A stretch of DNA of 53,580 nt from assembly GCA_018607905.1 (NCBI GenBank), contig JABBAP010000055.1, positions 1-53,580 on the forward strand, given 5' to 3'. How positions within the stretch are numbered: position 1 is the stretch's first letter; every line of letters begins with the position of its first letter. A program made the position numbers and the translations under genes. Source of the stretch: Paracoccaceae bacterium (GTDB taxonomy: Bacteria > Pseudomonadota > Alphaproteobacteria > Rhodobacterales > Rhodobacteraceae). Below are positions 25,455 through 47,854 of this stretch, piece after piece. The notes beneath the pieces were generated by a model. It saw nothing but the letters and a program-made list of their open reading frames with translations. It was not told the DNA's origin and did not search any database.

Positions 25455-26903
25455 GTGGATCTTTCATTGGTAAATATGGATGCAACTAAAATGGCGTCTT
25501 TGGTTCGCACAAAGCAAATCACTTGCCTTGCGTTACTGGAAGCACATTTTGACCGTGTCGATGCGCTTAACCCCAGCTTGAATGCAATCATCTGGCAAGA
25601 TCGCGATGGGGCGCGTGAGCGCGCTGCCATCCTGGATACGGAGGTCGCGCAAGGCGTATTTCGCGGACCTTTGCACGGCGTACCGATCACGGTAAAAGAG
25701 GCGTTTGATTTCGCCGGATCACCGAGCACTTGGGGAAATCCGGAGCTAGCGCAAAATTACCCGGCGCAGAACTCGGACGTCGTTCAACGCTATTTGGATG
25801 CGGGTGCCAATCTGTTTGGAAAAACCAATGTGCCGCTCAATCTGGCGGATTGGCAGTCCTTTAACGCGATTTATGGCACCACAAATAATCCTTGGGATAT
25901 GTCGCGCGGACCAGGCGGGTCATCGGGTGGATCTGCTGCGGCGTTGGCGACAGGCATGTCAGCCCTTGAAGCAGGTAGCGATATCGGATCATCCATCCGA
26001 AACCCCGCGCATTACTGTGGCGTATTTGGGCTAAAACCTACTTGGGGCGTTGTATCTGAGCAAGGCCACAGCCTGCCTGGCTGGCACACAGACATTGATA
26101 TCGCAGTGACGGGCCCAATGGCGCGCAGTGCACGGGATTTAATGCTCGCGTTTGAATTGTTGGCAGGGCCGGATCGCTATTCAAAGGATACTTGGTCGCT
26201 TCATTGCCCGACGGATCTGCGCGAGGATATTTCGGATTTCAAGATTGCGTTGAAGTTGAGCGACGCCGCCTGCCCTGTTGATCAGGCGTATCAGGACAGA
26301 TTGGCAGATTTTGCCGAAAAACTGTCTAAGGCAGGTGCAACGGTTCGCGAAATCGAACCTGAGTTGGACACATCAGATTATTTCAACACATATCTAACAT
26401 TGTTGGGCGCCGCGATGGGGTTTGGGATCTCTGCTGATGCAGTTGCCGTGGAACGGGCAGAAATGGAAGCCAAAACCACAGGCGTTATTCGCGATATTAT
26501 GACGACCCGTTTGAATGGGCGAGACATGCGCCATTCTGATTGGATGGTTGCGGACAACAAACGTAGGCTTGCACGACAGTTGTTTGATAACTTCTTTCAA
26601 GATTGGGATATTTTGCTGACGCCCGTTTGCGCATCCGCGGCATTTCCCCACAATCACAGTGGCCAACGCTATGAGCGTGCGCTTACGATAAATGGCGCAC
26701 AACAGCCCGAAATGCAGCAATTGTTCTGGTCTGGGTATTCGGGGGTTGTTGGCCTGCCAAGCGCGGTTGGCCCGATGGATTTTGTTGGGTCTTTACCAGT
26801 GGGCTATCAAGCGATTGCTGGCCATGGCAAAGATCGCACGGCCCTTGCTTTCGCAAGTTGCGTCGAAAATCAAATTTGCAGCTTTACAGCTCCACCGATC
26901 TAA
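25455..26903 (+). CDS. amidase-signature family amidohydrolase
   Basis: A cytosolic Ser-Ser-Lys amidase of about 482 residues. The catalytic lysine is in VPITVKEAFD, the glycine/serine signature in GPGGSSGGSAAALATG and the nucleophile region in EAGSDIGSSIRNPA. The GTG at 25455 is preferred: GGAGG lies four bases before it and VDLSLVNMDATKMASLVR is where family likeness starts; an upstream TTG at 25401 has no such site. Amidases of this family include indoleacetamide hydrolases and the GatA subunit; no GatB or GatC gene is present, so a catabolic role is more likely. It is divergent from the peptide transporter and precedes the MarR and iorAB genes on the same strand, fitting a supply of aromatic acids from amides. 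Confidence 0.88.
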   Translation: MDLSLVNMDATKMASLVRTKQITCLALLEAHFDRVDALNPSLNAIIWQDRDGARERAAILDTEVAQGVFRGPLHGVPITVKEAFDFAGSPSTWGNPELAQNYPAQNSDVVQRYLDAGANLFGKTNVPLNLADWQSFNAIYGTTNNPWDMSRGPGGSSGGSAAALATGMSALEAGSDIGSSIRNPAHYCGVFGLKPTWGVVSEQGHSLPGWHTDIDIAVTGPMARSARDLMLAFELLAGPDRYSKDTWSLHCPTDLREDISDFKIALKLSDAACPVDQAYQDRLADFAEKLSKAGATVREIEPELDTSDYFNTYLTLLGAAMGFGISADAVAVERAEMEAKTTGVIRDIMTTRLNGRDMRHSDWMVADNKRRLARQLFDNFFQDWDILLTPVCASAAFPHNHSGQRYERALTINGAQQPEMQQLFWSGYSGVVGLPSAVGPMDFVGSLPVGYQAIAGHGKDRTALAFASCVENQICSFTAPPI

Positions 26904-27047
26904 AGCAGAGCCGTCACCTTGGATTGCAAACAACTTATGGCTATTTCATTGCAGGTTTTAACATCGTATCGCGCAAGCTCCTTTGGTTGCTCTTTTGCGT
27001 TCGCATCGTAAGCATAACAATTGAGCAAAAGTAACGAGGAGTTTAGC

Positions 27048-27536
27048 GTGAAAAGCAAGGGCATCAAATCGAAGGCGGTGCAAAATGAGGCACCCCATGA
27101 AGGACAAGGTTTATCACGCTTTGCGCCGTATTTAATTAACCGGATTGCGCATCGCTATAATCAAAGCCTTCAGGATGCTGTCACCGAATTGGGCCTGACG
27201 ATACCAAAAATGCGCGTGCTGGCTGCCCTTGCCGCGATGGGCAAGTTAAGTGTGAACGAACTGACCGTTGTTGCTGTTGCCGAGCAATCAACGATGAGCA
27301 GGACGCTCGATCAGATGGAACGCGACGGATTGATCAACCGCATGAAAAGCCAAGCAGATAGCCGCATGCGTGTGGTGCAGTTGACGCAATCCGGGCTTAT
27401 GGCCTACCGCGAAGTTTGGCCCCAAATGAGCGAAGCCGAAGACGCGTTGTTTGTTGGGTTAAGCAAAGACCAACGAGATGGCTTTCTTGATACGCTTTCA
27501 CAGATTTTGCTAAATATCCGCAAACATGATTTCTAA
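27048..27536 (+). CDS. MarR-family transcriptional regulator (iorAB-linked)
   Basis: A dimeric winged-helix regulator of about 163 residues, including a 20-30 residue N-terminal extension. LTVVAVAEQSTMSRTLDQME is the recognition-helix region and ADSRMRVVQLT the wing. The GTG at 27048 is chosen because GAGGAG lies 7 bases upstream; TTG 27021 has no site. The iorA gene starts 78 bases downstream, and a promoter plus a 14-base palindrome fill the gap, so this protein is the obvious candidate repressor of iorAB, released by an aromatic acid or CoA ester as in other catabolic MarR proteins. The ligand is inference. Confidence 0.88.
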   Translation: MKSKGIKSKAVQNEAPHEGQGLSRFAPYLINRIAHRYNQSLQDAVTELGLTIPKMRVLAALAAMGKLSVNELTVVAVAEQSTMSRTLDQMERDGLINRMKSQADSRMRVVQLTQSGLMAYREVWPQMSEAEDALFVGLSKDQRDGFLDTLSQILLNIRKHDF

Positions 27537-27545
27537 ACTTGCTGT

Positions 27546-27574
27546 TTGACTCGCTCAGACATTGATCATATTTA
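27546..27574 (+). promoter_or_regulatory. sigma-70-type promoter of iorAB
   Basis: TTGACT (27546-27551) and TATTTA (27569-27574) are separated by exactly 17 bases, a good match to the vegetative consensus. They place transcription start near 27581, inside the palindrome, about 34 bases before the iorA GTG. Confidence 0.55.
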
Positions 27575-27576
27575 TT

Positions 27577-27590
27577 TATGCAAATGCATA
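27577..27590. promoter_or_regulatory. palindromic operator candidate upstream of iorA
   Basis: TATGCAAATGCATA is a perfect palindrome with six-base arms around AA. It lies just after the -10 hexamer, where bound repressor would block initiation. Its layout (TATGnA, two bases, TnCATA) matches the palindrome in front of the Rieske oxygenase operon at 39.6 kb, which points to related MarR proteins reading both. Confidence 0.55.
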
Positions 27591-27614
27591 CAAATTTTCT
27601 TGGGAGTCAAACTT

Positions 27615-29771
27615 GTGGCAGAACGCTCATTTGCAAAAGAAGTTCAACACCTCAAGATTGGTAAAGGCGAGACCTTCCGCGGCGAGGGTATTTTGGCAAT
27701 TACAAAAGCGTTGCTGGAGAATGGCGTTGGCTATGTCGCTGGGTATCAAGGGTCGCCGATCTCTCACTTAATGGATGTTTTGTCTGATGCGCAGGACATT
27801 TTGGCAGACATGGGTGTTCATTTTGAAGCAAGCGCATCCGAAGCAACTGCGGCGGCAACTTTGGCTGCATCGGTGCATTATCCAATCCGTGGCGCAGTGA
27901 CGTTCAAATCAACTGTCGGAACGAATGTGGCGTCTGATGCCTTGGCCAATCTGGCCTCTGGTGGGGTCACGGGTGGAGCGTTGGTAATTGTTGGCGAAGA
28001 TTACGGCGAAGGATCGTCGATCATGCAAGAACGCAGCCACGCTTTCGCGCTCAAAAGCCAGATTTGGCTGCTCGATCCGCGCCCAAACTTGCCCTCAATG
28101 GTGAAAGCAGTTGGTGACGGGTTTGCACTGTCCGAGGCCACAAACAGCCCCGTTATGTTGCAATTGCGGATCAAGTCCTGCCATTTATTGGGCGAGTTCG
28201 AAGCGAAAGACAACGTCGCCCCCCACACTACCGTGAAGGATGCGTTGGAAAATCCGAAACGTGATTTAACGCGCATTGTTCTACCGCCCGCTTCGTTTCT
28301 GCATGAGCAGGAAAAAGTGACGAAGCGTCTACCGGCGGCGATTGATTACATTCGCGAGCATAACCTGAACGAGCGTTTTGGCCCTGCGCAGGGCAAAGTC
28401 GGCATCATCTGTCAGGGCGGCATGTACAACAGCGTTATTCGCGGGTTGCAGCGATTGGGTCTGGCAAATATTTACGGCGACTGTGATGTCCCGCTGCATG
28501 TTCTGAATGTGACTTACCCGTTGGTTGATGATGAAATCCTGAGCTTTGCCGAGGGCAAGGACAGTATTCTGGTTATTGAAGAAGGCCATCCAGCCTATAT
28601 TGAACAAAATATCCGCGCGATTTTGCACAAAGCTGGGGCGCAGTCTGGCGTCGCGGGCAAAGGCCCCTTCCCTGAAGCAGGTGAATTGACAGGGGCAATT
28701 CTTCTCGATGGGATTTCAGCATTCTTTCGGGAGGCAGCACCTGATTTGATGCCCTCTGTTGCCCGCGCGCCCAACGCGCCGCCAATCCTAAAAATGCCAG
28801 AGCTGACAGCCACCGTACCCGCGCGCCCGCCGAGTTTTTGTATCGGCTGTCCGGAACGGCCCATTTTTGCGGCAACCAAGATGATCGAGGAAGAGCTGGG
28901 CCCGCATCACATTGCCGGTGACATTGGATGCCATTTGTTTTCGATAAACGCCCCGTTTGATATTGGCGCGACAACGATGGGCTATGGCTTGGGGCCAGCA
29001 TCTGCATCGGCGTTCAATGACAAAACAGCTGCGCGACGGTCTATTTCATTCCTCGGGGATGGCGGATTCTGGCACAATGGCTTGACCTCGTCGATCGGGA
29101 ACGCCGTGTTCAATGACAATGACGGCGTTATCGTAATCGTCGATAATTTCTATTCAGCTGCCACGGGCGGGCAAGATATTTTATCCTCACGCGCAGACAA
29201 CAAATCAAAATCCACAAAGCATCCGATAAAGAAAGCAGTTGAGGGCATGGGGGTCAAATGGGTGCGCCAGTTGGACCGCACCTATGACGTTGGTTTGATG
29301 CAAGCGACGTTGAAAGAGGCCTTAGAAACACCAGAAACTGGACCAAAAGTTATCATTGCCTCGTCCGAATGTATGTTGAACAAACAACGTCGCGAAAAGC
29401 CCCTTCGCAAGAAAGCAGTGTCTGAGGGCAAACGCATGAAACGCACGCGGTTTGGAGTGGACGAAGATGTTTGCACTGGCGATCACGCCTGTATCCGCCT
29501 GTCTGGATGCCCGTCTTTATCATTGAAAACGCTCGATGATCCGCTGCGCGATGATCCCGTGGCCAGCATTGATCAGAATTGCGTGGGCTGTGGTAATTGT
29601 GGCGAAGTGGCAGATGCAGCGGTGTTGTGCCCGTCGTTTTACCAAGCGGATTTGATTGAAAACCCGTCTCGGCTGGATCGTTTCTTTGGCCAGTTGCGCC
29701 AAGGTTTGATTACCAAGCTGCAAAAGCGCCGCGATGCGCGGCGGTTGGTGTTTTCGCGAGATCCGTCATGA
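27615..29771 (+). CDS. iorA: indolepyruvate:ferredoxin oxidoreductase alpha subunit
   Basis: With IorB this enzyme oxidatively decarboxylates aryl-pyruvates (indolepyruvate, phenylpyruvate) to aryl-acetyl-CoA, using thiamine diphosphate and passing electrons to a ferredoxin. The 718-residue chain has an N-terminal pyrimidine-binding domain (GYQGSPISHLMDVL), a thiamine diphosphate region (SFLGDGGFWHNG then DNFYSAATGGQD, about residues 490-540) and a C-terminal ferredoxin-like part with cysteines in CTGDHACIRLSGC and CVGCGNC. GTG 27615 is chosen because GGAG lies about eight bases upstream; the open frame extends back to 27546 through the promoter. It shares four bases with iorB. Homologues act on several 2-oxo acids, so indolepyruvate is the family name rather than a proven substrate; the anthranilate-type genes nearby support it. 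Confidence 0.88.
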   Translation: MAERSFAKEVQHLKIGKGETFRGEGILAITKALLENGVGYVAGYQGSPISHLMDVLSDAQDILADMGVHFEASASEATAAATLAASVHYPIRGAVTFKSTVGTNVASDALANLASGGVTGGALVIVGEDYGEGSSIMQERSHAFALKSQIWLLDPRPNLPSMVKAVGDGFALSEATNSPVMLQLRIKSCHLLGEFEAKDNVAPHTTVKDALENPKRDLTRIVLPPASFLHEQEKVTKRLPAAIDYIREHNLNERFGPAQGKVGIICQGGMYNSVIRGLQRLGLANIYGDCDVPLHVLNVTYPLVDDEILSFAEGKDSILVIEEGHPAYIEQNIRAILHKAGAQSGVAGKGPFPEAGELTGAILLDGISAFFREAAPDLMPSVARAPNAPPILKMPELTATVPARPPSFCIGCPERPIFAATKMIEEELGPHHIAGDIGCHLFSINAPFDIGATTMGYGLGPASASAFNDKTAARRSISFLGDGGFWHNGLTSSIGNAVFNDNDGVIVIVDNFYSAATGGQDILSSRADNKSKSTKHPIKKAVEGMGVKWVRQLDRTYDVGLMQATLKEALETPETGPKVIIASSECMLNKQRREKPLRKKAVSEGKRMKRTRFGVDEDVCTGDHACIRLSGCPSLSLKTLDDPLRDDPVASIDQNCVGCGNCGEVADAAVLCPSFYQADLIENPSRLDRFFGQLRQGLITKLQKRRDARRLVFSRDPS

Positions 29772-31273
29772 CTATTCTGATGCCCACGGTAGGTGGCGCC
29801 TCTGAAATCCTAAAGCTGGCGGTGTTGGCGGTTGGGGGGCAAGGCGGCGGCGTGCTAACAAATTGGATCGCCGATCTTGCAGCTCGTGGTGGGTATGCGG
29901 TTCAAATGACGTCTGTGGCTGGTGTGGCTCAACGCACGGGAGCGACCATCTATTATGTAGAGATGGCGCCAAAAACGGACCGCCTGCCCGTTTTCGGCCT
30001 TAGCCCATCGCCAGGAGATTTGGACGTCCTTATCGCGGCAGAGCTGATGGAAGCGGGTCGTGCCGTGATGCGCGGATTTGTGACGCCAGACCGCACAACT
30101 TTGATCGCATCGAACCATCGCATCCTTGCGATTTCAGAAAAGGAAGTTCCCGGGGATGGGCGCGCCAAAGGCACGTTGGTAGAAGAAGAAATAACAAAGG
30201 CAGCCCTTCGTTGTGTTTGTTTTGACATGGAAACCTTGGCCGTTGACGCTGGGAGCATGATTTCGGCTAGCCTGTTTGGTGGGCTTGCCCGCAGCGGCGC
30301 ATTACCGTTTGAAGTTGCCCAATTTGAAGAGGTGATAATGGCATCTGGGCGCGGTGTAGAGCAAAGCCTCGCTGCGTTTCGCGCTGCATTGAATTACGAA
30401 ACTAGCGATGCGATTGAACTGGTAGCGACGCCAAAAAAACAAACAGTTTCAGGGCCGCAAAAGTTAATGACTGGGTGGACTGAGCTGTGCGCGCAGGTTG
30501 CTGTTTTCCCAAGCGAAGCGCGACCAATGGTTCAGGCTGGGTTGGCGAAAGTTGTAGATTATCAAGATTTGGAGTACGGTAAAACATATCTCTCTCATGT
30601 GTCCAAACTAACAAATATTCATGCAGGTTTGGCCGAAAACGCAGCAAAATACATCGCAAATGCAATGTGTTACGATGATATTTTACGCGTTGCTGATCTA
30701 AAAACACGCGCGTCGAGACAAACACGATTGCGTGCAGAGCAAGACATTCCTGAAGGCGAAATCGTTCAAGTGACTGAGTATTTTCACCCACGCGCACAGG
30801 AGGTGTGTGGAACATTGCCAGCGGGATTAGGCGCGTGGATCGAAGCGCGTCCAAAGGCGTTTTCGCGCCTAGATCGCATGACAAACAGAGGACGGCGAAT
30901 TAGGACCGATGGTATTTTCGGATTTGGAATTTTATGGGTTGTTAGCACTTTGAAATCACGCCGACGCAGCCTTTTGCGGCACCATTATGAAACGTTGCAT
31001 TTGGATGCATTGCTCGAACACGTTAAGCATGCCGCTCAAACCAATGTGAGTTTGGCAGTCGAGATTCTAAAATGCCAGCGATTGATCAAAGGATATTCAG
31101 ACACCCACGTACGCGGCCACTCCAAATTTGCAAAAGTCATTTCGGCGCTGAGCGTTCTATCTGGGCGTGATGATGCAGCGGAATGGATCAGGCGCCTTCG
31201 TCAGGCCGCGTTGGAAGATGAAAAAGGCGAAGCGCTAGAGGGTGCATTAAAAACGGTTCGTTCTTTTGCATGA
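29768..31273 (+). CDS. iorB: indolepyruvate oxidoreductase beta-type subunit with C-terminal extension
   Basis: The N-terminal 200 residues are the pyruvate-ferredoxin-oxidoreductase gamma/beta domain (GGQGGGVLTNWIADLAARGG, then QRTGATIYYVEM). The further 300 residues are a C-terminal extension found in the long proteobacterial IorB type, rich in Lys/Arg near its middle and of unclear function. At 501 residues it is much longer than archaeal IorB (about 200). Its ATG overlaps the iorA TGA as ATGA, so the subunits are probably made in equal amounts. It ends 12 bases before the convergent SDR gene with no visible terminator between them. Confidence 0.85.
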   Translation: MTILMPTVGGASEILKLAVLAVGGQGGGVLTNWIADLAARGGYAVQMTSVAGVAQRTGATIYYVEMAPKTDRLPVFGLSPSPGDLDVLIAAELMEAGRAVMRGFVTPDRTTLIASNHRILAISEKEVPGDGRAKGTLVEEEITKAALRCVCFDMETLAVDAGSMISASLFGGLARSGALPFEVAQFEEVIMASGRGVEQSLAAFRAALNYETSDAIELVATPKKQTVSGPQKLMTGWTELCAQVAVFPSEARPMVQAGLAKVVDYQDLEYGKTYLSHVSKLTNIHAGLAENAAKYIANAMCYDDILRVADLKTRASRQTRLRAEQDIPEGEIVQVTEYFHPRAQEVCGTLPAGLGAWIEARPKAFSRLDRMTNRGRRIRTDGIFGFGILWVVSTLKSRRRSLLRHHYETLHLDALLEHVKHAAQTNVSLAVEILKCQRLIKGYSDTHVRGHSKFAKVISALSVLSGRDDAAEWIRRLRQAALEDEKGEALEGALKTVRSFA

Positions 31274-31285
31274 GGGTGAGCGGCG

Positions 31286-32011
31286 TCACAGCGACATCGC
31301 GCCAACGCTGCCACCGCCACAAACATAGAGTGTCTGTCCTGTAACAAACCCGTTTTCTGGATCGCAGAAAAACAGGAATGCGTTTGAAATATCGCGCACA
31401 TTTCCCAAACGCCCGACAGGGATCCGTTTGGCCAGCTCTTCTTCGCGCGCGCTGCCTTTGGGAATTATTCCCCAAAAATTGTCGGTCTGTACAGGACCCG
31501 GTGAAACAACATTTACCGTGATCCCATGTGGCGCCAACTCCAATGCCCAAGTGCGGGCCATCCCGATGATCCCTGCTTTGGTTGCCGAATAAGCGGTGCG
31601 CGTTGGGACGCCCAGCGCTGCCCTTGACCCGTTAAACAAGACACGGCCAAAGCCATTCGCTTTCATTGATGGCAAGCAGGCCTGCAACATGATCAATGGC
31701 GCACCAAGATGCAATTGCGTCAAGCCAGCCAGATCAGATGAACTCGCTTCTTCCAGCAGGTTGGGCCAGATCATGCCCGCGTTGTGGACAAGATGCGTGA
31801 TGTTATGCTTTGCCGCGATCTCTGCCGCCGCTGATTGCGTGGCGGTGGCATCTAGCAAATCGACTTCAACATGATGAAGCTGCGCATCAGACCATTCTGG
31901 CGTACCACGTGACAGCGAAACAACATCATACCCTTTGGCAATCAATCGTTGCCCAAGATCAGCACCAATCCCTTTGCTGCCTCCGGTAATAAGTGCGGTG
32001 TATTTCGTCAT
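31286..32011 (-). CDS. short-chain dehydrogenase/reductase
   Basis: A complete SDR of 241 residues with the cofactor loop TGGSKGIG (residues 10-17), HNAG and the catalytic S-Y-K triad in NGSRAALGVPTRTAYSATKAG. It probably oxidises or reduces a hydroxy/keto group of a pathway intermediate with NAD(P). It is the last gene of the overlapping minus-strand unit, its ATG sharing four bases with the cyclase-family gene stop. In the proposed pathway it could oxidise a cis-diol or beta-hydroxyacyl-CoA formed after the oxygenase step. The DUF35-SDR fusion upstream has lost these motifs, so this protein may be the active SDR of the operon. Confidence 0.88.
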   Translation of the reverse strand: MTKYTALITGGSKGIGADLGQRLIAKGYDVVSLSRGTPEWSDAQLHHVEVDLLDATATQSAAAEIAAKHNITHLVHNAGMIWPNLLEEASSSDLAGLTQLHLGAPLIMLQACLPSMKANGFGRVLFNGSRAALGVPTRTAYSATKAGIIGMARTWALELAPHGITVNVVSPGPVQTDNFWGIIPKGSAREEELAKRIPVGRLGNVRDISNAFLFFCDPENGFVTGQTLYVCGGGSVGAMSL

Positions 32012-32781
32012 GACATCACCATTGCAAGAACGCGCAATGGGCTGCCCGTTCCGCCCTTAATCTTAAGCGGGGGCGCAATAAGCAGCGCCCCAGTTGCAGG
32101 CAATAAATCAAGGTTGCACAGGCATTGCAGCCCAAATTTGCCAGCGCCATGCAGCAGGTAATGCGCAGGATAAGGCGGAACATAATGGGAGCCTTGGCCT
32201 GCGTCTGTGCCAACGGTTTCTGTTCCAAAGCCGCGGATATCTCGTTTGAGCAAGAGTTCAATTGCAGCGGGTGTCGGACCTGGGGAATGGGGGCCATCTT
32301 CGGCCATATTCAGATACTCTGCGCCGCGGCGTTTGGACCAATCGGTGCGCATCAACACCCAAGCATCGGCGGGGATTGTGCCATGTTCAACTTCCCAAGC
32401 CTCGATCACGGCAGGAGTTAATTCAAAGTCATCATCCTTGGCCGCGCCAGCGGAACAATCAATAACCACGACAGGACCAACGAACACGCTGGGATCAATT
32501 TCATCCACATCGCCATTTGGAACATCTTTACCCGACACCCAGTGGCTAGGCGCATCAAAATGCGTGCCTGTGTGCTCATTTAACGTGAGGTTATGCCACT
32601 TCCAAGCAGGGCCCCGATGATCATAAGCGCTAACTTCTTCCATACGAAAACGGGCGCATTGGCCGAATTCTGGCGGAAGGATAATCACCGGAAAATCTGG
32701 ATCAAGCGTGTGGGTTAGATCGACAATGCGGGCCGCTCCACTTGCCAACGCCTCAGCAACATTTGAAATCAGCGCGCTCAT
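32008..32781 (-). CDS. cyclase-family metal hydrolase (kynurenine-formamidase / isatin-hydrolase-like)
   Basis: Family members are metal-dependent amide hydrolases: bacterial kynurenine formamidase removes formyl from N-formylkynurenine, and isatin hydrolase opens the isatin ring to isatinate. The 257-residue protein carries the metal motif HTGTHFDAPSHW and, in its second half, TETVGTDAGQGSHYVPPYPA and HGAGKFGLQCLCNLDLLP, which I associate more with the isatin-hydrolase-like group than with KynB. ATG 32781 is chosen because AGGAGG lies six bases upstream and it overlaps the preceding TGA. Lying among a Rieske oxygenase, a thiolase-fold protein and 2-aminobenzoyl-CoA genes, it probably hydrolyses an aminobenzoyl-type amide made by indole-ring cleavage. 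The exact substrate is inference. Confidence 0.82.
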   Translation of the reverse strand: MSALISNVAEALASGAARIVDLTHTLDPDFPVIILPPEFGQCARFRMEEVSAYDHRGPAWKWHNLTLNEHTGTHFDAPSHWVSGKDVPNGDVDEIDPSVFVGPVVVIDCSAGAAKDDDFELTPAVIEAWEVEHGTIPADAWVLMRTDWSKRRGAEYLNMAEDGPHSPGPTPAAIELLLKRDIRGFGTETVGTDAGQGSHYVPPYPAHYLLHGAGKFGLQCLCNLDLLPATGALLIAPPLKIKGGTGSPLRVLAMVMS

Positions 32782-39556: not shown

Positions 39557-39577
39557 AGGAGTCTCCCTTGCAAAACA

Positions 39578-39593
39578 ATATGAATTTTCATAT
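39578..39593. promoter_or_regulatory. palindromic operator candidate in the reductase/MarR divergent gap
   Basis: ATATGAATTTTCATAT is a perfect 16-base palindrome. On the minus strand it lies downstream of a TTGACC hexamer (39600-39605) and covers the expected -10 position of the oxygenase operon, so a bound regulator would block transcription. The half-site arrangement matches the palindrome upstream of iorA. The divergently encoded MarR at 39647 is the likely binder. Confidence 0.6.
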
Positions 39594-39646: not shown

Positions 39647-40102
39647 ATGACTACATCGTCTAAATTTGAAGAAAAAACTGGATTTGTTGATGATTACTTG
39701 CTCTATTTGTTGGCCGCTGCCAGCGAAGGCGCAAGCGCACAGTTTCATGCTGAAGTACGCAGTCTAGGCCTGCGCGTTCCAGAATGGCGAGTGTTAGCCT
39801 GTCTACACGATCAAGACGGGGCAATGATTACCCAACTGGCATGTGTTGCCCTAGTCGAACAATCTCGCTTGACCCGCATCATCGTACAAATGGAAGATCG
39901 AGGGCTGCTGATCCGTCAAAGTGACCCTGTTGACGGTAGACGCGTATGTGTTTTTCTGACGCGCAGCGGAAAAGAACTGACCAATCAACTTGTGCCTAAA
40001 GCCCGAGCCCATGAACAAGTTCTTTTAGACCGCTTACCGAAAAGGGGCAGTGCCAATTTAAAGCCAATTTTGCGTGCGCTTTTGAATGCGCTCGATAAAT
40101 AG
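39647..40102 (+). CDS. MarR-family regulator (oxygenase operon)
   Basis: A 151-residue winged-helix regulator; ALVEQSRLTRIIVQMEDRGL is the recognition helix region and DPVDGRRVCVFLT the wing. It is transcribed divergently from the oxygenase operon with a palindrome in the 90-base gap, the usual set-up for an autoregulated repressor responding to a pathway aromatic or CoA ester. It is followed after 130 bases by the 2-aminobenzoyl-CoA monooxygenase/reductase gene. Confidence 0.9.
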   Translation: MTTSSKFEEKTGFVDDYLLYLLAAASEGASAQFHAEVRSLGLRVPEWRVLACLHDQDGAMITQLACVALVEQSRLTRIIVQMEDRGLLIRQSDPVDGRRVCVFLTRSGKELTNQLVPKARAHEQVLLDRLPKRGSANLKPILRALLNALDK

Positions 40103-40132
40103 GTTAGATTTTCTCGCGGTAGATGAACTATC

Positions 40133-40172
40133 AGAATATACTTCATATATAAAATATTTATACTTGAAATTA
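40133..40172. promoter_or_regulatory. AT-rich repeat region upstream of the monooxygenase/reductase operon
   Basis: The stretch carries two ATACTT repeats (in ATACTTCATAT and ATACTTGAAAT) and an imperfect inverted repeat TATAAA-ATA-TTTATA. ATATGAA, half of the palindrome at 39.6 kb, occurs here on the minus strand. It probably contains the promoter and regulator site of the plus-strand operon, but no clean palindrome was found. Confidence 0.3.
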
Positions 40173-40232
40173 AATCATAGCTTTTCTAACCTATAAATGA
40201 AAGCGACCAAGTACAACAGAAAGTGACACTCT

Positions 40233-42527
40233 ATGCGTATTGCCTGTCTCGGCGGTGGACCTGCTGGCCTGTATTTCGCAATCTCAGTAAAACTTCGCGA
40301 TCCATCCGCTGAGGTAGTTGTTTTTGAGCGCAACCGCGCCGATGATACCTTTGGCTGGGGCGTAGTTTTGTCAGATGAAACGCTTGGAAACCTAGAGACT
40401 AACGACCCAGTAAGTGCCGCCAGTGTTCGCGCGCATTTCGCCTATTGGGATGATGTTGCGACAGTACACAAAGGTCAGAAAATGCTGTCAACAGGGCATG
40501 GGTTTTGCGGCATCGGGCGTAAACGACTGTTAATGATTTTGCAGGCGCGTGCAGCAGAATTGGGTGTTGATTTGCGGTTTGAAACCGAAGTCGGCGCCGC
40601 ATCTGAATACATGAATGATTACGATGTGGTCGTAGCCTGCGATGGATTGAATTCTAAAACCCGTATGGAATTTGCTGACACCTACAAACCGGATATTGAT
40701 ACACGGCTGTGCCCTTTTGTTTGGCTTGGAACCCATCAAAAATTCGACGACGCGTTCACCTTTATCTTTGAGGAAACTGATAAGGGTTGGATTTGGGCAC
40801 ACGCCTATCAATTTGATGATAATACCGCGACGTTTATCGTTGAATGCAGCCAGGAAACCTATGACGCATATGGCTTTGGAAATTTGTCCCAACAAGATAG
40901 CATCGCAATCTGTGAGGAGGTTTTCAAAGACCATCTTGGCGGCCATTCTTTGATGACAAATGCCAATCATATTCGGGGATCGGCTTGGATTAAATTCCCG
41001 CGTGTGCTGTGTGAAAAATGGAGTCACAAAAATGTGGTTTTGATGGGTGATGCTGCCGCGACCGCACATTTCTCGATCGGATCAGGTACAAAACTAGCAC
41101 TCGAAAGCGCAATCTCCCTGGCCGAATATTTGGATCAAAGCCCTACCGTTTCTGACGCCTTCGCCAAATACGAAGATACACGACGCCTTGAGGTATTGCG
41201 CCTGCAATCAGCTGCTCGCAATTCTGTCGAATGGTTTGAAGATGTGGAGCGGTATTTGCACTTGGACCCCGTGCAGGTGAATTATTCACTGCTAACGCGC
41301 AGCCAACGGATTAGTCACGAGAATTTACGTGAGCGCGATCCAAAATGGCTCGCCTCCGCTGAAAAGTGGTTCATTGAACAAGCTGGTGCCGATACAAACG
41401 GTGCCGCCCGCGCGCCGATGTTTGCTCCCTTTAAGTTGCGTGAAATGCACCTAAAAAACCGGATCGTTTTATCTCCGATGGCGCAATACAAAGCAATTGA
41501 TGGCGCTCCAACAGATTGGCACCTTATTCACTATGGCGAGCGGGCCAAAGGTGGGGCTGGCCTCATCTATACTGAAATGACCTGCCCCTCTGCAGATGGG
41601 CGGATTACACCGGGATGCCCTGGTCTTTATGCCCTAGAACACGAGGCCGAATGGTCGCGTCTGATAAATTTTGTGCATTCAGAAACCGAAGCAAAAATAT
41701 GCTGTCAGATTGGCCATGCTGGACGCAAGGGGTCTACCAACATTGGCTGGGAGGGCATGGATTCGCCGCTTAAGGCCGATAATTGGCCGCTTTTTTCCGC
41801 GTCCTCGATCCCTTGGTCCAAATGCAATGCCGTCCCAAAGGCAATGACTCGCGAAGATATGAACGTCATCAAAGCCGAATTCGTGCTAGCGACAAAAATG
41901 GCCCAACGTGCGGGTTTTGACATGATAGAATTACACGCAGCGCACGGGTATTTGATCTCGTCATTCATCTCGCCGCTTTCTAACATCCGCACCGATGAAT
42001 ATGGTGGGACGCTTGAAAACCGGATGCGTTATCCATTGGAAGTGTTTCTCGCGATGCGCAACATCTGGCCCGCTGATAAGCCCATGTCAGTACGCATTTC
42101 TGCAAATGACTGGGCAGGTGATGACGGCGTTACGCCCATTGAGGCGGTTGAAATCGCGCGGATGTTCGAGGCAGCGGGTGCCGATATCATTGACGTTTCG
42201 GCTGGGCAGACCTCAACACAAGGCGAACCTATTTATGGACGTATGTTCCAAACGCCGTTTTCAGATCGTATCCGTAACGAAGCAGGGATCAAGACAATGG
42301 CTGTTGGCAATATCTTTGAAGCCGATCATGTAAACTCAATCTTAATGGCGGGCCGTGCTGATCTGGTGTGCCTTGCGCGCCCGCATCTCGCGGACCCTTA
42401 TTGGACCCTGCATGCGGCAACAGAATTGGGGGACAGGCAGGAAAAATGGCCCCAACCCTATGAAGCGGGCCGCGATCAAGTATGGCGTTTGGCGGACAAA
42501 CAAGCAGAAACGGAAAACAAAATATGA
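40233..42527 (+). CDS. fused FAD monooxygenase/old-yellow-enzyme, 2-aminobenzoyl-CoA monooxygenase/reductase type
   Basis: Enzymes with this architecture hydroxylate and reduce 2-aminobenzoyl-CoA (ACMR) or hydroxylate salicylyl-CoA. Residues 1-385 are a class A flavin monooxygenase: [10 protein letters not shown] at the N-terminus and [20 protein letters not shown] near residue 270. Residues about 392-764 are an old-yellow-enzyme domain: [38 protein letters not shown] with the catalytic-type His, [14 protein letters not shown], and a C-terminal [12 protein letters not shown]. The length, 764, matches the fused type. Followed with overlaps by SDR, MarR, crotonase, acyl-CoA dehydrogenase and a benzoate-type ligase, it fits the aerobic hybrid route of 2-aminobenzoate degradation (the abm genes of Aromatoleum/Azoarcus evansii), where the dearomatised CoA ester enters beta-oxidation. 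Salicylyl-CoA is the alternative substrate. Confidence 0.88.
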
Positions 42528-43243
42528 GGCGCGTATTGGTAACGGGTGGTGGATCTGGCATTGGGCGCGGCATCGCACGGGCCTTTGCTGATGCGGGCCA
42601 CGATGTAACGATCGCGGGGCGGCGTGCTGAGGCCTTGGAAGAAACGAATGGCGCGCGTTCCGTGACTTGCGTCACGGCCGACGTCTGCGATGAAGCGACG
42701 GTGGATGCATTGTTCGAACATCCCTTCGATGTGGTTGTCGCCAATGCGGGCATTGGCCGCGTAGCCCCCCTAACCGAAGTCACTCTTGATGAATGGAACC
42801 AAACGATCGCGGTGAATCTAACCGGCACGTTTCTAACCTTTCGCGGCGCACTTCGTGGGATGAAATCAGGTGGGCGATTGATCGCCGTTGCATCTACCGC
42901 TGGGTTGCAAGGGGGACCACGCATCGGTGCCTACTGCGCGTCAAAACACGGAGTTATCGGCCTTGTTCGCTCGGTAGCCAAAGAGGTCGCGCGCAAAGGC
43001 ATTACCTGCAACGCCATTTGCCCTGGATTTGTGGACACCGAAATGGCGCAAACAGCTGTTGCGTCTGTTATGAAAGCGCGAAACGTAGATGCGGTAACAG
43101 CTGAAAAAATGGTCGTTTCTGGGAACCCGACTGGTCGCATGATCGACGTGGCCGAGGTTGTCTCCGCCGCTGTTTTTCTTGCCTCAAAAGGGGCATCCAG
43201 CGTGAACGGCCACGCCCTTAGCGTATCGGGCGGCGAAATATGA
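42524..43243 (+). CDS. SDR, probable 3-hydroxyacyl-CoA or cyclic-alcohol dehydrogenase
   Basis: A complete 239-residue SDR with [10 protein letters not shown] at the N-terminus, NAGIG, and the triad in [20 protein letters not shown]. It starts with ATGA shared with the previous stop and ends with ATGA shared with the following MarR gene. In the 2-aminobenzoyl-CoA route a hydroxyacyl-CoA dehydrogenase acts after reduction and hydration of the ring, and this gene is the natural candidate. The start at 42524 ([12 protein letters not shown]) fits family length; an upstream in-frame start lies inside the previous gene. Confidence 0.88.
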
Positions 43244-43716
43244 GTGACCTGCAGACAACACCCACACCAGATCGAGTTTCCAAAGACAGGCTTCGCCTTT
43301 GGCTCCGTTTTCTAAAAGCAAGCCGCACGATCGAAACCCAATTACGTGAAAATTTGCGGGTTGAGTTTGCATCAACCCTGCCCCGTTTTGATGTGATGGC
43401 TGCATTGTCACGGTTTGAAGAGGGATTGAAGATGAGCCAGCTTTCTGGCGTTCTAAAGGTATCTAATGGCAATATTACTGGAATTGTTGATCGTTTGGCC
43501 GAAGATGGCATGATCGTTCGTGTTCCCGTTCCCAAGGATCGACGTGCAACACTTGTTTGCATGACAAAACGTGGTCGCGAAGAGTTCGCGATGCAAGCGG
43601 CGGCGCATGAAACGTGGATAAACGAGATGCTGGTTGATTTTTCTGCTCAAGAAGCCCGCGACATCGCAATCCGACTGGAACAGCTTGACCTTAGTTTACA
43701 GGAGAAAACCCCATGA
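43240..43716 (+). CDS. MarR-family regulator inside the CoA-pathway operon
   Basis: A 158-residue winged-helix regulator; [20 protein letters not shown] is the recognition helix and [13 protein letters not shown] the wing. Unusually it is embedded between enzyme genes, overlapping by four bases on each side, so it is produced together with the enzymes. Regulators of aerobic aryl-CoA pathways often bind the first CoA thioester; 2-aminobenzoyl-CoA is the natural guess here. Its operator may lie in the AT-rich region upstream of 40233. Confidence 0.88.
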
Positions 43717-44519
43717 CAATGCGCACAGATGTAAAGCATTTCAATTGCACTCTCAAAGATGGCATCGCGACCGTCAAATTGGACCGTCCTGATCGCAAAA
43801 ACCCGCTGACTTTCGATAGTTACGCCGAACTGCGCGACTGGTTTCGCGATCTTGTTTATGCAGATGATGTTAATGCCGTGATCTTTGCCTCCAATGGTGG
43901 CAATTTTAGTTCAGGTGGCGATGTGCACGACATTATCGGGCCCCTTACTAAGATGACGATGAAAGAGCTTTTAAACTTTACGCGGATGACCGGCGATTTG
44001 GTTAAGGCGATCGTCAACTGTGGCAAGCCGGTCATTGCAGCTGTTGATGGTGTTTGTGTTGGTGCAGGTGCGATTATCGCGATGTCCTGTGATCTGCGCA
44101 TTGCGACGCCTGCTGCAAAATGTGCTTTCTTATTTACACGCGTTGGCCTTGCGGGTTGCGATATGGGGGCGTGTGCGATCCTTCCACGTATCATCGGTCA
44201 GGGCCGTGCCGCGGAGCTATTGTATACAGGTCGCTCAATGAGTGCTGACGAAGGGGCGGCATGGGGATTTTACAACAAAGTTGTTGAGCAGGATGCTCTG
44301 GATTCCGAAGCGTTTACAATGGCTTCTCGGATTGCATCTGGGCCAAATTTTGCAAACATGATGACAAAAACGATGCTTGCGCAAGAATGGTGCATGTCTA
44401 TCGAACAAGCAATTGAAGCAGAGGCACAGGCCCAAGCGATTTGTATGAAAACAGTCGACTTTGAGCGGGCCTACAACGCATTTGTAGCCAAAGAAAAACC
44501 AGTATTCGAGGGCAACTAA
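43713..44519 (+). CDS. enoyl-CoA hydratase/isomerase (crotonase) family protein
   Basis: A 268-residue crotonase. The oxyanion-hole segments [10 protein letters not shown] (64-73) and GVCVGAG (113-119) are intact. The usual first glutamate position in the 140s reads FTRVGL (R143), and the second acidic position appears as D150 in GCDMGA. This pattern departs from simple enoyl-CoA hydratases and may indicate a ring-directed reaction such as hydration or hydrolysis of a cyclic CoA ester, as in the 2-aminobenzoyl-CoA pathway. ATGA overlap with the MarR gene before it and TAATG overlap with the acyl-CoA dehydrogenase after it show translational coupling. Confidence 0.85.
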
Positions 44520-45682
44520 TGGCTGATAAAACTTTTCTAAACTGGCCGTTTTTCGACGAAAAGCATCGTCATTTGGCCCAGCGTCTGGATGCATGGGCCA
44601 CCAAAGAATTGGCTAATATTGATCACAGTGACACGGATACGGCCTGTAAATCTTTGGTTAAGAAGTTGGGTCGTGGTGGTTGGTTGCAGCATGCCGCTGT
44701 CGACCCCGAAGGTGAAACACAATTAGACGTACGAACCTTATGTTTGATCCGTGAAACACTTGCCCGCCATGATGGGTTGGCTGATTTCGCCTTTGCGATG
44801 CAAGGATTGGGAACGGGCGCTATTTCACTGTTTGGGACGACGGCACAGAAACGCGAATGGTTGCCTAAAATCCGGAATGGCGAGGCGATTTCGGCCTTTG
44901 CCTTGACGGAACCACAGTCTGGTTCTGACGTTGCCAACTCAACTATGACAGCCACCCGTGATGGTAATCATTACATGCTGAATGGTGAAAAAACATGGAT
45001 TTCCAACGGTGGCATTGCCGATATCTACACGACCTTTGCGCGCACAGGAGATGCACCGGGCGCGAAAGGGCTGTCAGCATTTATCGTGCCTGCAGATACA
45101 CCTGGGTTGGAAATTGTTCAGCGGCTGGATACGATTGCCCCTCACCCGCTTGCAACGCTACGCTTTACAGATTGCCGCATTCCGGCAACCGCGATGCTTG
45201 CCCAAAGTGGCGAAGGTTTTAAAATTGCGATGTCCGTACTGGACGTATTTCGATCAACGGTCGCGGCAGCAGCCCTAGGGTTTGCACGGCGTGCATTGGA
45301 CGAAGCACTGACACGTTGTACGACCCGCGAGGTTCAAGGTGCACCTTTATTTGAACTCCAGATGGTTCAGGGCCACATTGCCGATATGGCTGTGGATGTG
45401 GATGCCAGCGCTTTGCTAATTTACCGCGCTGCCTGGACCAAAGATTCCGGAGCGCCGCGCATCACACGCGAAGCTGCAATGGCCAAATTGTTTTCCACAG
45501 ACCAAGCGCAAAAAGTTATCGACAAGGCCGTTCAATTGCACGGCGGTGATGGTGTGCGCTCCGGTGAAACCGTTGAAAAGCTATACCGCGAGATAAGAGC
45601 CCTTCGCATCTATGAGGGCGCATCCGACGTGCAGCGCGTTATCATCGCGCGCCAAACGCTCGGCGCACATTCCCCCACGTAG
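44519..45682 (+). CDS. acyl-CoA dehydrogenase
   Basis: A 387-residue FAD enzyme that introduces a 2,3-double bond into an acyl-Co[20 protein letters not shown] and [17 protein letters not shown] are the FAD/substrate signature regions, [20 protein letters not shown] the C-terminal signature, and the glutamate in [10 protein letters not shown] is the usual catalytic base. It follows the crotonase with a one-base overlap and is followed by the CoA ligase after 19 bases. In this setting it would oxidise a saturated cyclohexane- or alkyl-CoA intermediate after dearomatisation. Confidence 0.92.
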
Positions 45683-45701
45683 CGTATCGTTAGGAAGCCA
45701 A

Positions 45702-47327
45702 ATGTTCGAACAGACAGCACACTTAGATACCTTTGCACGCGATAATCTCCCGCCGCGCGATCAAATGCCAGATTTTCTGCTTGATGGGTTTGATTATCCT
45801 GCCCGATTAAACGCGGGTGTGGAATTGACGGATGCGTTGGTTGAAAAAGGGTTTGGCGACAACACGGCTTTGATTGGAAATGGCAGACGACGCACCTACA
45901 AAGAGTTGGCCGATTGGACCAACAGATTGGCCCATGTTCTGGTAGATGATCTGGATCTGAAACCTGGAAATCGTGTCTTGATCCGCTCTGCAAATAACCC
46001 TGCGATGGTTGCTTGTTGGCTGGCTGCGACGAAAGCTGGCGCCGTGGTTGTCAACACGATGCCGATGTTACGCGCTGGCGAATTGAGCCAAATCGTGGAC
46101 AAGGCTGCGATTACCCATGCCCTGTGTGACACACGGTTGATGGACGAAATGGTATCGTGTGCAAACGGCAACGCACATCTGACACACGTTGTTGGGTTTG
46201 ATGGAACCTCAAATCACGATGCCGAGTTAGACCGCTTGGCATTGGAAAAACCTGTGCAATTTAGCGCTGTGAAAACGGCTTCAGACGATGTTGCCCTACT
46301 GGGTTTCACGTCTGGCACGACTGGCTCAGCCAAAGCAACAATGCACTTTCATCGTGACCTTTTGATTGTCGCAGACGGATACGCCAAAGAGGTTCTTGGT
46401 GTATCACCAGAAGACGTTTTTGTCGGCTCCCCGCCACTGGCGTTTACCTTTGGGCTTGGCGGCTTAGCAATATTTCCGCTTCGGTTTGGCGCGACGGCTA
46501 CTTTGTTAGAACAAGCCACGCCACCAAACATGATTGAGATTATTCAAAAATACAAAGCGACGGTTTGCTTCACGGCTCCCACGGCTTATCGCGCGATGCT
46601 TGGCGCGATGGATCAAGGCGCTGACCTTTCGAGTTTGCGTGCTGCCGTTTCGGCGGGTGAAACGCTGCCAAAACCTGTCTATGACGATTGGATCGCAAAA
46701 ACTGGCAAACCGATGTTAGATGGAATTGGTGCAACTGAAATGCTCCACATCTTTATCTCAAACCGCTTTGACGATCACAAACCTGCCTGCACAGGACGTG
46801 TTGTCACTGGATATGAAGCCAAGATCATTGATGATCAGGGGAACGACGTTCCTTTTGGAACCGTTGGCCGATTGACGGTGCGTGGGCCAACCGGATGTCG
46901 ATATCTGAGCGACGAACGACAGATTGGATATGTTCACAAAGGGTGGAACATCACCGGCGATGCCTTCACGATGGACGCCGATGGATACTTGTATTTCGCT
47001 GCCCGTAACGACGATATGATTATTAGCTCTGGGTACAATATTGCCGGGCCAGAAGTCGAAGCCGCACTTCTTTCTCACCCCGAAGTGGCCGAATGTGCCG
47101 TTATTGGGGCTCCTGACGATGAGCGTGGCATGATCGTGCAAGCACATGTTGTTTTGATCAAAACAAACCCAAGCGCCAAATTGATCAAGTCGTTACAAGA
47201 TCATGTGAAAGCAACAATCGCGCCGTACAAATATCCTCGAAGTATAAAATTTTGTGATGCGCTTCCAAAAACTCAAACCGGGAAAATTCAGCGCTTTATG
47301 CTCCGATCAGAAAATATGAAGTCGTGA
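45702..47327 (+). CDS. benzoate/2-aminobenzoate-type CoA ligase
   Basis: An AMP-forming ligase of 541 residues, typical of the benzoate-CoA ligase family. GFTSGTTGSAKATMHFHRD is the nucleotide-binding loop (the AT-MHFHRD form is typical of benzoate-type ligases), DGIGATEMLHIFISN the aryl-adenylate motif, and TGDAFTMDADGYLYFAARNDDMI plus KTQTGKIQRF the hinge and lysine parts. ATG 45702 is chosen, with AGGAAG upstream. As part of the monooxygenase/reductase operon it most likely makes 2-aminobenzoyl-CoA from anthranilate. It allows free anthranilate to enter the pathway in addition to any CoA ester made by the minus-strand operon. Confidence 0.9.
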   Translation: MFEQTAHLDTFARDNLPPRDQMPDFLLDGFDYPARLNAGVELTDALVEKGFGDNTALIGNGRRRTYKELADWTNRLAHVLVDDLDLKPGNRVLIRSANNPAMVACWLAATKAGAVVVNTMPMLRAGELSQIVDKAAITHALCDTRLMDEMVSCANGNAHLTHVVGFDGTSNHDAELDRLALEKPVQFSAVKTASDDVALLGFTSGTTGSAKATMHFHRDLLIVADGYAKEVLGVSPEDVFVGSPPLAFTFGLGGLAIFPLRFGATATLLEQATPPNMIEIIQKYKATVCFTAPTAYRAMLGAMDQGADLSSLRAAVSAGETLPKPVYDDWIAKTGKPMLDGIGATEMLHIFISNRFDDHKPACTGRVVTGYEAKIIDDQGNDVPFGTVGRLTVRGPTGCRYLSDERQIGYVHKGWNITGDAFTMDADGYLYFAARNDDMIISSGYNIAGPEVEAALLSHPEVAECAVIGAPDDERGMIVQAHVVLIKTNPSAKLIKSLQDHVKATIAPYKYPRSIKFCDALPKTQTGKIQRFMLRSENMKS

Positions 47328-47446
47328 GTTGATGAAATGCGATTTCAATGCGTTCCAACTCTTGTCCATTCCAATTCAATCAGAAAACCGACGCCTTGGC
47401 CTGATCATACCCACACGGCCCTCACCCCCTACATTCGGAGCACACC

Positions 47447-47854
47447 ATGACTGCAAAAATAATCCAACCCAACGATTGGGCTCCCGCAAGGGGCTATGCT
47501 AACGGGTTGTTGGCGCGTGATGGAACGCTGTACATTGGTGGGCAGATTGGGTGGACTGAAGATCAAGTTTTTGAGACTCATGATTTCATTGGGCAAATGG
47601 AACAATCACTGAAGAACATTGTGGCTGTGGTTGAAGCTGCCGGGGGCCAGATTGATGATATCACACGATTGACTTGGTTCGTGATCAACAAAGCCGAATA
47701 TGTTGCGCGACAACGTGAAGTCGGAGAGGTTTATCGCCGCGTATTAGGGCGCCATTTCCCTGCGATGTCGATGTTGGTTGTCGCCGGTTTGGTCGAAGAT
47801 GCAGCCTTGTTAGAAATTGAGGCGACTGCTTTTATTGATCCCAGAAAAAAATAA
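47447..47854 (+). CDS. Rid (YjgF/UK114) family protein lacking the RidA arginine
   Basis: A 135-residue trimeric Rid-fold protein with FETHDFIGQMEQSLKNI and a C-terminal LLEIEATAFI. Archetypal RidA hydrolyses enamines/imines using a conserved arginine that binds the substrate carboxylate in a PARS-type motif. Here that segment reads FPAMSML, with M107 in its place. So it belongs to another Rid subfamily. Its position after the 2-aminobenzoyl-CoA genes suggests it helps remove the amino group from an enamine CoA ester, which has no free carboxylate to bind; this is inference. GGAG lies upstream of the ATG, and a gap of about 119 bases separates it from the ligase gene. Confidence 0.82.
   Translation: MTAKIIQPNDWAPARGYANGLLARDGTLYIGGQIGWTEDQVFETHDFIGQMEQSLKNIVAVVEAAGGQIDDITRLTWFVINKAEYVARQREVGEVYRRVLGRHFPAMSMLVVAGLVEDAALLEIEATAFIDPRKK

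Follow-up and report, generated by a model that had tools for sequence, protein, structure and literature searches.

An indole-3-acetate degradation (iad) locus joined to an operon of the 2-aminobenzoyl-CoA monooxygenase/reductase type in a Paracoccaceae bacterium, with a proposed route through isatin and isatinate

The window analysed here is a stretch of 53,580 nucleotides from a Paracoccaceae bacterium (contig JABBAP010000055.1, assembly GCA_018607905.1). It holds two operons: one on the minus strand (39556 to 31286), which corresponds to the iad locus already published for the breakdown of indole-3-acetate (IAA), and one on the plus strand (40233 to 47854), which its sequence identifies as being of the 2-aminobenzoyl-coenzyme A (CoA) monooxygenase/reductase (ACMR) type. 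The locus is known in kind, while its joined endpoint is new. A preliminary description, made from the letters alone, had read the two operons as an undescribed route from IAA to 2-aminobenzoyl-CoA. The gene families that it named were found where it placed them, as Pfam and NCBIfam matches on long, mostly overlapping open reading frames (ORFs). The features are the following:

27021–27536, plus strand: MarR gene beside iorAB (MarR, 42.8 bits)
27577–27590: palindrome TATGCAAATGCATA, second candidate operator, upstream of iorA
27615–29771, plus strand: iadA (iorA), alpha subunit of a 2-oxoacid:ferredoxin oxidoreductase, proposed isatinate:ferredoxin oxidoreductase (TPP_enzyme_C, 55.9 bits)
29768–31273, plus strand: iadB (iorB), beta subunit, POR and DUF6537 (PRK08312, 657.8 bits, cut-off 348)
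31286–32011, minus strand: iadJ, SDR dehydrogenase (adh_short_C2, 135.2 bits)
32008–32781, minus strand: iadI, isatin hydrolase (5nnb, 495.8 bits)
32778–34028, minus strand: iadH, ChsH2-type DUF35 fused to a degenerate SDR domain (Pfam zf-ChsH2, OB_ChsH2_C and adh_short)
34028–35194, minus strand: iadG, thiolase-fold protein, proposed retro-aldolase with the DUF35 of IadH (9myr, 167.2 bits; 6ok1, 134.8 bits)
35191–36795, minus strand: iadF, acyl-CoA ligase, proposed substrate dioxindole-3-acetate (AMP-binding, 182.7 bits; position in the published order)
36792–37265, minus strand: iadE, oxygenase beta subunit (Ring_hydroxyl_B, 79.7 bits)
37262–38602, minus strand: iadD, Rieske oxygenase alpha subunit, IAA oxygenase (9o71, 545.5 bits; 7yls, 544.2 bits)
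38615–39556, minus strand: iadC, reductase with a [2Fe-2S] domain (Fer2, 46.8 bits)
39578–39593: palindrome ATATGAATTTTCATAT, candidate IadR operator, between iadC and iadR
39647–40102, plus strand: iadR, MarR regulator (81 of 140 residues identical to 3CDH)
40233–42527, plus strand: fused flavin monooxygenase/OYE reductase, ACMR type (PRK08255, 1283.2 bits, cut-off 1078)
42524–43243, plus strand: SDR of the ACMR operon (adh_short_C2, 168.9 bits)
43240–43716, plus strand: MarR of the ACMR operon (39.4 bits)
43713–44519, plus strand: enoyl-CoA hydratase family (PRK08258, 472.4 bits, cut-off 330)
44519–45682, plus strand: acyl-CoA dehydrogenase (Acyl-CoA_dh_1, 155.3 bits)
45702–47327, plus strand: aryl-CoA ligase, probably 2-aminobenzoate-CoA ligase (TIGR02262, 353.8 bits, below the cut-off of 375.25)
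47447–47854, plus strand: Rid-family protein (Ribonuc_L-PSP, 64.7 bits)

The iadAB genes run towards iadJ and end 13 bp from it, and the ACMR operon follows the iad locus. The first protein of that operon (40233) carries both the FAD monooxygenase and the OYE domain, and three MarR genes (27021, 39647 and 43240) lie in the stretch. The benzoate-CoA-ligase-like second ligase (ORF from 45612) is an addition to the gene list of the preliminary description. On the basis of the translations, the likely true starts are ATG 32781 for iadI, ATG 42524 for the second SDR and ATG 45702 for the second ligase. The iorA ORF opens at 27546, conservation begins at residue 24, and the corresponding GTG at 27615 is the likely true start.

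The minus-strand operon follows the gene order published for Variovorax, iadC-D-E-F-G-H-I-J (PMC12633357). Furthermore, iadA and iadB (COG4231 and COG1014) have been used as exclusive markers of iad-like loci in a phylogenomic study (PMC9613470), and the window's IorAB pair (27615-31273) is iadAB. We evaluated the arrangement on the best 80 of 567 relatives, all of them iadD loci from other genomes: the eight genes iadC-J were all present in 56 of the 80, and in 53 they shared a strand and the order C-D-E-F-G-H-I-J. The arrangement is not due to chance. Since the gene order is the published one and IorAB is the published marker, the claim that the operon is undescribed fails.

As for the oxygenase, the two solved Variovorax IadD structures in the list were followed at a distance by a phenylpropionate dioxygenase, with 140.1 bits. 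Then, we compared twelve cluster, iron and pocket residues listed for the enzyme (PMC10374108) in an alignment of 81 IadD rows. The equivalents of C85, H87, C106, H109, N210, H216, H221, H311, K322, R329 and D377 were kept in 81/81 rows; the remaining one, Leu211, was replaced by Gln in all 81. The solved IAA oxygenase is reported to bind and convert free IAA, with a Kd of about 17 uM, and what builds up in a Variovorax ligase mutant is C10H9NO4, a compound that has been oxidised already, so that the ligase acts after oxygenation (PMC12633357). With IadD orthologous to an oxygenase of free IAA, and with C10H9NO4 building up in the ligase mutant, the oxygenation of a CoA ester, as the preliminary description had it, is unsupported. 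According to the published accounts, IadJ leads to dioxindole-3-acetate, the intermediates of the pathway are DOAA, dioxindole, isatin and isatinate, and the end product is anthranilate. In the IadJ alignment, the Tyr and Lys of the YxxxK motif were present in 68/68 rows.

IadI is, as judged from its sequence, an isatin hydrolase. It is 82% identical to LaIHA, the crystallised enzyme of Labrenzia that is active on isatin and whose catalytic residues have been named (PMC6117287; the available part of that text mentions IAA degradation, and these operons do not appear in it). Its score against isatin hydrolase A, given in the list, compares with 31 bits against kynurenine formamidase, and the arylformamidase KynB model (TIGR03035) gave 32.9 bits, under its cut-off of 223.05. 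Moreover, the iad operon of Roseibium aggregatum IAM 12614 (locus L056 in our labelling, where L denotes loci and G genomes) has an iadI whose product agrees with 5nnb at each of the 249 printed residues. In an alignment of 50 rows, from which 14 of the 63 orthologs had been left out as short, the Mn motif and the Asp-His-His triad (H69, H73, D75, H79, D193, H207, Q219), together with W59, W61 and W80, were kept in 50/50 rows. Y204 was kept in 40, with Phe in the other ten, and the window protein has all the catalytic residues. The formula of isatinate, C8H7NO3, fits the published remark that the C8H7NO3 compound is not N-formylanthranilate (PMC12633357).

The two genes upstream of iadI have been assigned in print to a ketothiolase (IadG) and an alcohol dehydrogenase (IadH) (PMC12633357), and our data point elsewhere. 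The solved proteins nearest to IadG by sequence are Sal (9myr) and Ltp2 (6ok1), and the same two, both aldolases, took ranks 1 and 2 when the IadG model (pLDDT, a per-residue model confidence score, 75.3) was searched with Foldseek. The site of the thiolase nucleophile is Gly (G84-G85) in 64/64 rows, the nucleophilic Cys being absent, and Sal likewise has Gly there (PMC12329534). The motif YDDY is also kept in 64/64 rows and places the catalytic Tyr of YDxx at Y281; the motif reads YDCY in Sal and YDHF in Ltp2, with the Tyr as base (PMC12329534). IadH (32778-34028, minus strand) is a fusion of a ChsH2-type zinc ribbon and OB fold with an SDR-like domain. In an alignment of 63 rows (2 of 64 orthologs were left out as short), the N-terminal half, the DUF35 partner, had its four zinc Cys in 63/63 rows, while the SDR half had YxxxK in 0/63; the IadH of G473, from another family, carries Gln in place of the Lys. 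We propose from sequence and model that IadG works like the Ltp2/Sal retro-aldolases, without classing it as Sal or Ltp2, as its acid residues differ. The simplest reaction for IadG-IadH would be a retro-aldol cleavage of dioxindole-3-acetyl-CoA to isatin and acetyl-CoA, with no redox change. Considering together an isatin hydrolase, an aldolase-like IadG without nucleophile and an IadH without YxxxK, the sequence of steps would be from dioxindole-acetyl-CoA to isatin plus acetyl-CoA and then to isatinate.

This leads to the question of what IadAB does. IorA reached 281.8 bits against the indolepyruvate ferredoxin oxidoreductase model TIGR03336, under its cut-off of 650.9, and matched no solved structure by sequence; its seven C-terminal Cys are invariant (11 rows). 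We searched 296 genomes of the window's family, about one per genus, with IadD, IorA, ACMR and IadI. The IorA matches split into a close group (64-100% identity) and a distant group (52-54%), and the window genome itself has a second, distant homolog in a 1151-aa open frame. IadD was found in 25 genomes, all 25 with a close IorA. Isatin hydrolase (IH) was found in 55 genomes, 55/55 with a close IorA, and 30 of these were without IadD. Conversely, among the 59 genomes with a close IorA, 55 had IH and 52 had ACMR; the eight genomes with a distant IorA alone had IH in 0/8 and ACMR in 1/8. IH lay no more than 5 kb from 39 of the 61 close IorA copies and no more than 20 kb from 48 of them (40 times on the same strand); ACMR lay within 20 kb of 13 and IadD of 9. 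In a sample of 264 genomes from the phylum (counted by hand; two IorA genes matched in two pieces), there were 18 with close IorA, 17 with IH, 16 with both and five with IadD (one at 43% identity).

We then fetched the neighbourhoods of iorA in 20 of the 34 loci with a close IorA and without IadD, in part chosen for a nearby ACMR. IH adjoined iorA in 19 of the 20, mostly together with MarR and with CrtI-like FAD oxidoreductases (one or two), and ACMR was present in nine of the stretches. Many iad-negative loci also have a MarR homolog before iorA, as the window has at 27021. In 22 of 24 IH loci compared, IH was nearer to LaIHB (68.9-90.5%) than to LaIHA. The other isatin hydrolase with a crystal structure, LaIHB, agrees exactly over 255 residues with a gene product of R. 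aggregatum, and its gene lies 2.1 kb ahead of iorA in the same direction. Co-directional iorA-iorB-ACMR runs were found in G220 (without IH and IadD), G526 and G478, and in Caballeronia SBC1 (L132), where a thioesterase gene is interposed; Azospirillum thermophilum has the run iorA-iorB-iadC-D-E-F-J-ACMR-SDR-crotonase. Six distant-IorA loci had none of these partners. In the IorA tree (50 rows), the close group was separate (100/100), and iad-linked and IH-B-linked members interleaved within it, which speaks for one function. A supplier of substrate for ACMR should make an aroyl-CoA and should therefore act on an arylglyoxylate: isatinate qualifies and indolepyruvate does not. Finally, IAA is reported to induce iorA 30.7-fold and iorB 7.64-fold in Bradyrhizobium japonicum (PMC3788728).

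Some of these loci show further features. In L083, L084, L085 and L097, a class-V pyridoxal-phosphate (PLP) domain, weakly kynureninase-like (TIGR01814, 44.6 bits), is fused to IH B directly upstream of iorA, on rough ORF calls. IH B clusters with CrtI/CrtO-like FAD oxidoreductases were seen in L088-L094, L096, L098, L099, L101, L117 and L122, and most of these stretches also hold a family-5 solute-binding protein or a dipeptide-type permease. The window has a dipeptide-type ABC transporter at 19925-25126 (fused ATPases, two permeases, family-5 binding protein), whose OppC-like permease is merely 38% identical to the permease of the IH B clusters. In L131, a plasmid of Hydrogenophaga sp. PBL-H3, a close iorA homolog lies at 8001-10349 with an IS66 element downstream; matches to it were also obtained on Variovorax plasmids from linuron-contaminated soil.

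As for regulation, TATG(N6)CATA occurs twice in the window, as ATATGAATTTTCATAT and TATGCAAATGCATA, against an expected 0.38, and 6/100 shuffles reach two. The wider pattern TATG(N4-8)CATA was found upstream of iadC in 38/69 other loci versus 0.48% of random 160-bp stretches, a background not matched for intergenic composition. IadR is 58% identical (81/140) to 3CDH of Ruegeria pomeroyi, the MarR with the highest published affinity for IAA. IadR would repress iadC-J, and perhaps iorAB, until IAA binds.

On these grounds we read the window as an iad locus joined to an ACMR operon, with a step scheme through isatin, isatinate and IadAB, to which we give a probability of roughly 60%. IadCDE would oxygenate free IAA and IadJ would oxidise the product to dioxindole-3-acetate, as published for Variovorax and applied here by orthology. 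Then, IadF would make its CoA ester, as the published work has concluded, and IadG with the DUF35 of IadH would cleave this tertiary beta-hydroxyacyl-CoA to isatin and acetyl-CoA, a step suggested by residues and fold. IadI would convert isatin to isatinate, i.e., 2-aminophenylglyoxylate, an activity published for its ortholog LaIHA. IadAB, on the strength of its gene partnerships, would carry out an oxidative decarboxylation (isatinate + CoA + ferredoxin to 2-aminobenzoyl-CoA + CO2). The ACMR operon would dearomatise and degrade 2-aminobenzoyl-CoA, its ligase also admitting free anthranilate. The operons do look like a route from IAA to 2-aminobenzoyl-CoA, and the endpoint given by the preliminary description may be right, reached by another enzyme than it proposed; the variant through isatin and isatinate, which it had also mentioned, is its better version.

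A broader reading, which we hold to be slightly favoured over its negation, is that the IadAB clade is an unrecognised isatinate:ferredoxin oxidoreductase. With IH and ACMR it would form a widespread isatin-degradation module of aerobic proteobacteria, fed by the IAA oxygenase in iad loci and by another isatin source in the IH B-FAD oxidoreductase clusters, and IadG-IadH would be a new retro-aldolase for oxindole acyl-CoA. Among titles and beginnings of abstracts, with subscription journals outside the search, no earlier proposal of IorAB acting on isatinate or of an aldolase in iad was found.

Several observations weigh against this interpretation. A close IorA occurred without IH in 4/59 family genomes (G139, whose contig ends early, G200, G220 and G240) and in 2/18 phylum genomes (G500 and G314, a Hydrogenophaga plasmid contig), and without ACMR in 7/59; IadD occurred without ACMR in 3/25. 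The neighbours of IorA in G200, G240 and G500 (TRAP transporter, thiolase-like, SDR, aminotransferase and others) offer no explanation, and in G314 iorA lies, without iorB, beside a Rieske/glutamine-synthetase cluster that looks unrelated. iorA stood within 10 kb of iadD in 12 of the best 80 of the 567 loci, or 9/61 when counting loci of 20 kb or more, and the Fisher p-values for co-occurrence in the 296 genomes ignore relatedness. The palindrome was found upstream of iorA in 4/49 other iorA loci, once with another spacing. As regards structure, the AlphaFold model of IorA has a pLDDT of 46.7 and its pocket is unreadable, and the IadG model drops below 50 at residues 83-86 and 325-336. IadG has kept neither Cys304, the general acid of Sal, nor Tyr344, that of Ltp2; it has Asp283 (64/64 rows) and Gln331 (invariant in 30 rows) at those positions. 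Lastly, the Variovorax iadI mutant is reported to accumulate C8H7NO2, the formula of dioxindole and not that of isatin (PMC12633357), so isatin would need to be reduced by something else.

The most serious alternative is the published account, in which iadC-J alone take IAA to free anthranilate through isatinate and an aldehyde-level C7H7NO. Here iadAB would have another task, e.g., indolepyruvate oxidation, and the ligase would be the sole entry of anthranilate into the ACMR operon. In print the pathway ends at anthranilate, the window's ACMR operon has an aryl-CoA ligase, and Variovorax strains with iadC-K2 but lacking iadAB recovered full anthranilate formation (PMC12633357). Those strains stand in a deletion background without genes 77-53, iadA being gene 72, so that anthranilate formation in Variovorax does not depend on IadAB, a point against our reading. 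In favour of our reading, C8H7NO3 and C7H7NO are reported to build up only in these strains, which overexpress iadC-K2 (PMC12633357). This account leaves unexplained the close IorA in 30/30 IadD-negative IH genomes, the iorAB pairs that head ACMR operons, the induction of iorAB by IAA and the enzyme that oxidises isatinate, and the distant homolog in the window genome could serve indolepyruvate instead. We regard it as unlikely.

Less likely again is that the IorAB clade makes aroyl-CoA from an arylglyoxylate but has another main substrate, being a helper in iad loci: 2-hydroxyphenylglyoxylate, for instance, or, in the IH B clusters, aminobenzoylpyruvate from kynurenine. In Caballeronia SBC1 (L132) and L113 (G526), the runs read iorA-iorB-thioesterase-ACMR-cupin-fumarylacetoacetate hydrolase-carbon-nitrogen hydrolase, and these downstream genes suggest a gentisate-type lower route, which makes another 2-substituted arylglyoxylate possible and counts against isatinate as the substrate. 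The kynureninase-like PLP domain fused to IH B before iorA in four loci would suit the kynurenine version. However, IH is the commonest partner of IorA, and the interleaving of iad- and IH-B-linked members in the tree argues for one substrate.

The original route of the preliminary description, in which IorAB supplies indoleacetyl-CoA, the oxygenase opens its ring, and KynB-like deformylation and thiolysis to 2-aminobenzoyl-CoA follow, agrees with the gene families in a general way and is very improbable: IadD has kept the residues of an oxygenase that binds free IAA in solved structures, the hydrolase is an isatin hydrolase (496 bits) and not KynB, IadG is without a thiolase nucleophile and looks like a retro-aldolase, the published intermediates are others, and the genomic partners of IorAB are IH and ACMR even where the IAA oxygenase is absent.

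Around the two operons, two amidases of different subfamilies were seen, at 25455-26903 (PRK06170, 514.9 bits) and 47897-49306 (PRK07486, 692.7 bits). The first was considered as an indoleacetamide hydrolase and rejected: it reached 179.1 bits against NF005688 (cut-off 532) and is not conserved beside iad, with a single match at 27% identity among the best 80 of 567 iadD loci, which places it outside the conserved system. At 7507-12368, a Y-family polymerase-like (IMS) gene precedes one for DNA polymerase III alpha, a pair that presumably resembles the ImuB-DnaE2 mutagenesis cassette. The stretch 49406-53453 holds a gene of the arginine-deiminase/DDAH-like kind and encodes an ABC-membrane protein of 992 aa that also carries a cyclic-nucleotide-binding domain.

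By degrading IAA, iad bacteria shape the growth of roots, and the middle steps of the pathway stand without enzymes in print; the text of the latest pathway paper makes no mention of iadA or iadB. If IadAB makes 2-aminobenzoyl-CoA, the pathway would conserve energy as reduced ferredoxin, acetyl-CoA and a CoA ester, the marker genes iadA and iadB would gain a function, and the annotation "indolepyruvate ferredoxin oxidoreductase" would need renaming in many aerobic proteobacteria.

Compared with known systems, the window is closest to the iad loci of Variovorax paradoxus CL14, Achromobacter and Bradyrhizobium japonicum (PMC9613470, PMC12633357, PMC10374108, PMC11630574), with which it shares an orthologous IadD, the order iadCDEFGHIJ, IorAB and a MarR of the IadR kind. 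Unlike them, it has iadAB running towards iadJ and an ACMR operon after the locus, its endpoint is probably 2-aminobenzoyl-CoA where the published pathway ends at anthranilate, and our step assignments for IadG, IadH, IadI and IadAB depart from the printed ones. IadI is an ortholog of LaIHA, one of the isatin hydrolases LaIHA/LaIHB of Labrenzia (Roseibium) aggregata (PMC6117287), with its catalytic residues and no difference seen. IadG shares with the steroid side-chain retro-aldolases Ltp2-ChsH2 and Sal-Shy (6ok1, 9myr; PMC12329534) the thiolase fold without nucleophilic Cys, the YDxx Tyr and a zinc-ribbon DUF35 partner, and these enzymes cleave a beta-hydroxyacyl-CoA, the type of substrate proposed for IadG. 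It differs in the proposed oxindole substrate and in the third motif residue, Asp (Cys in Sal, His in Ltp2), while IadH differs from the ChsH2/Shy partners in carrying its DUF35 on one chain with a dead SDR domain. Like the indolepyruvate oxidoreductases, IadAB is a two-subunit oxidoreductase dependent on thiamine pyrophosphate (TPP) with iron-sulfur motifs, and differs from them in falling far under the cut-off and in having IH and ACMR as partners. Phenylglyoxylate oxidoreductase is another TPP-dependent two-subunit enzyme with iron-sulfur motifs. The iac (to catechol) and anaerobic iaa routes of IAA degradation share the substrate with the window's route and use other enzymes, and none of their genes was found among the profiled window proteins. 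The iaa route runs via aminophenylsuccinate and ends at 2-aminobenzoyl-CoA, as we propose for the window. Finally, the 2-aminobenzoyl-CoA monooxygenase/reductase pathway, known from Azoarcus evansii, has in common with the window the fused monooxygenase/OYE protein, the ligase, the SDR, the crotonase and the acyl-CoA dehydrogenase; the difference is that here the CoA ester is proposed to come directly from IadAB as well as from the ligase.

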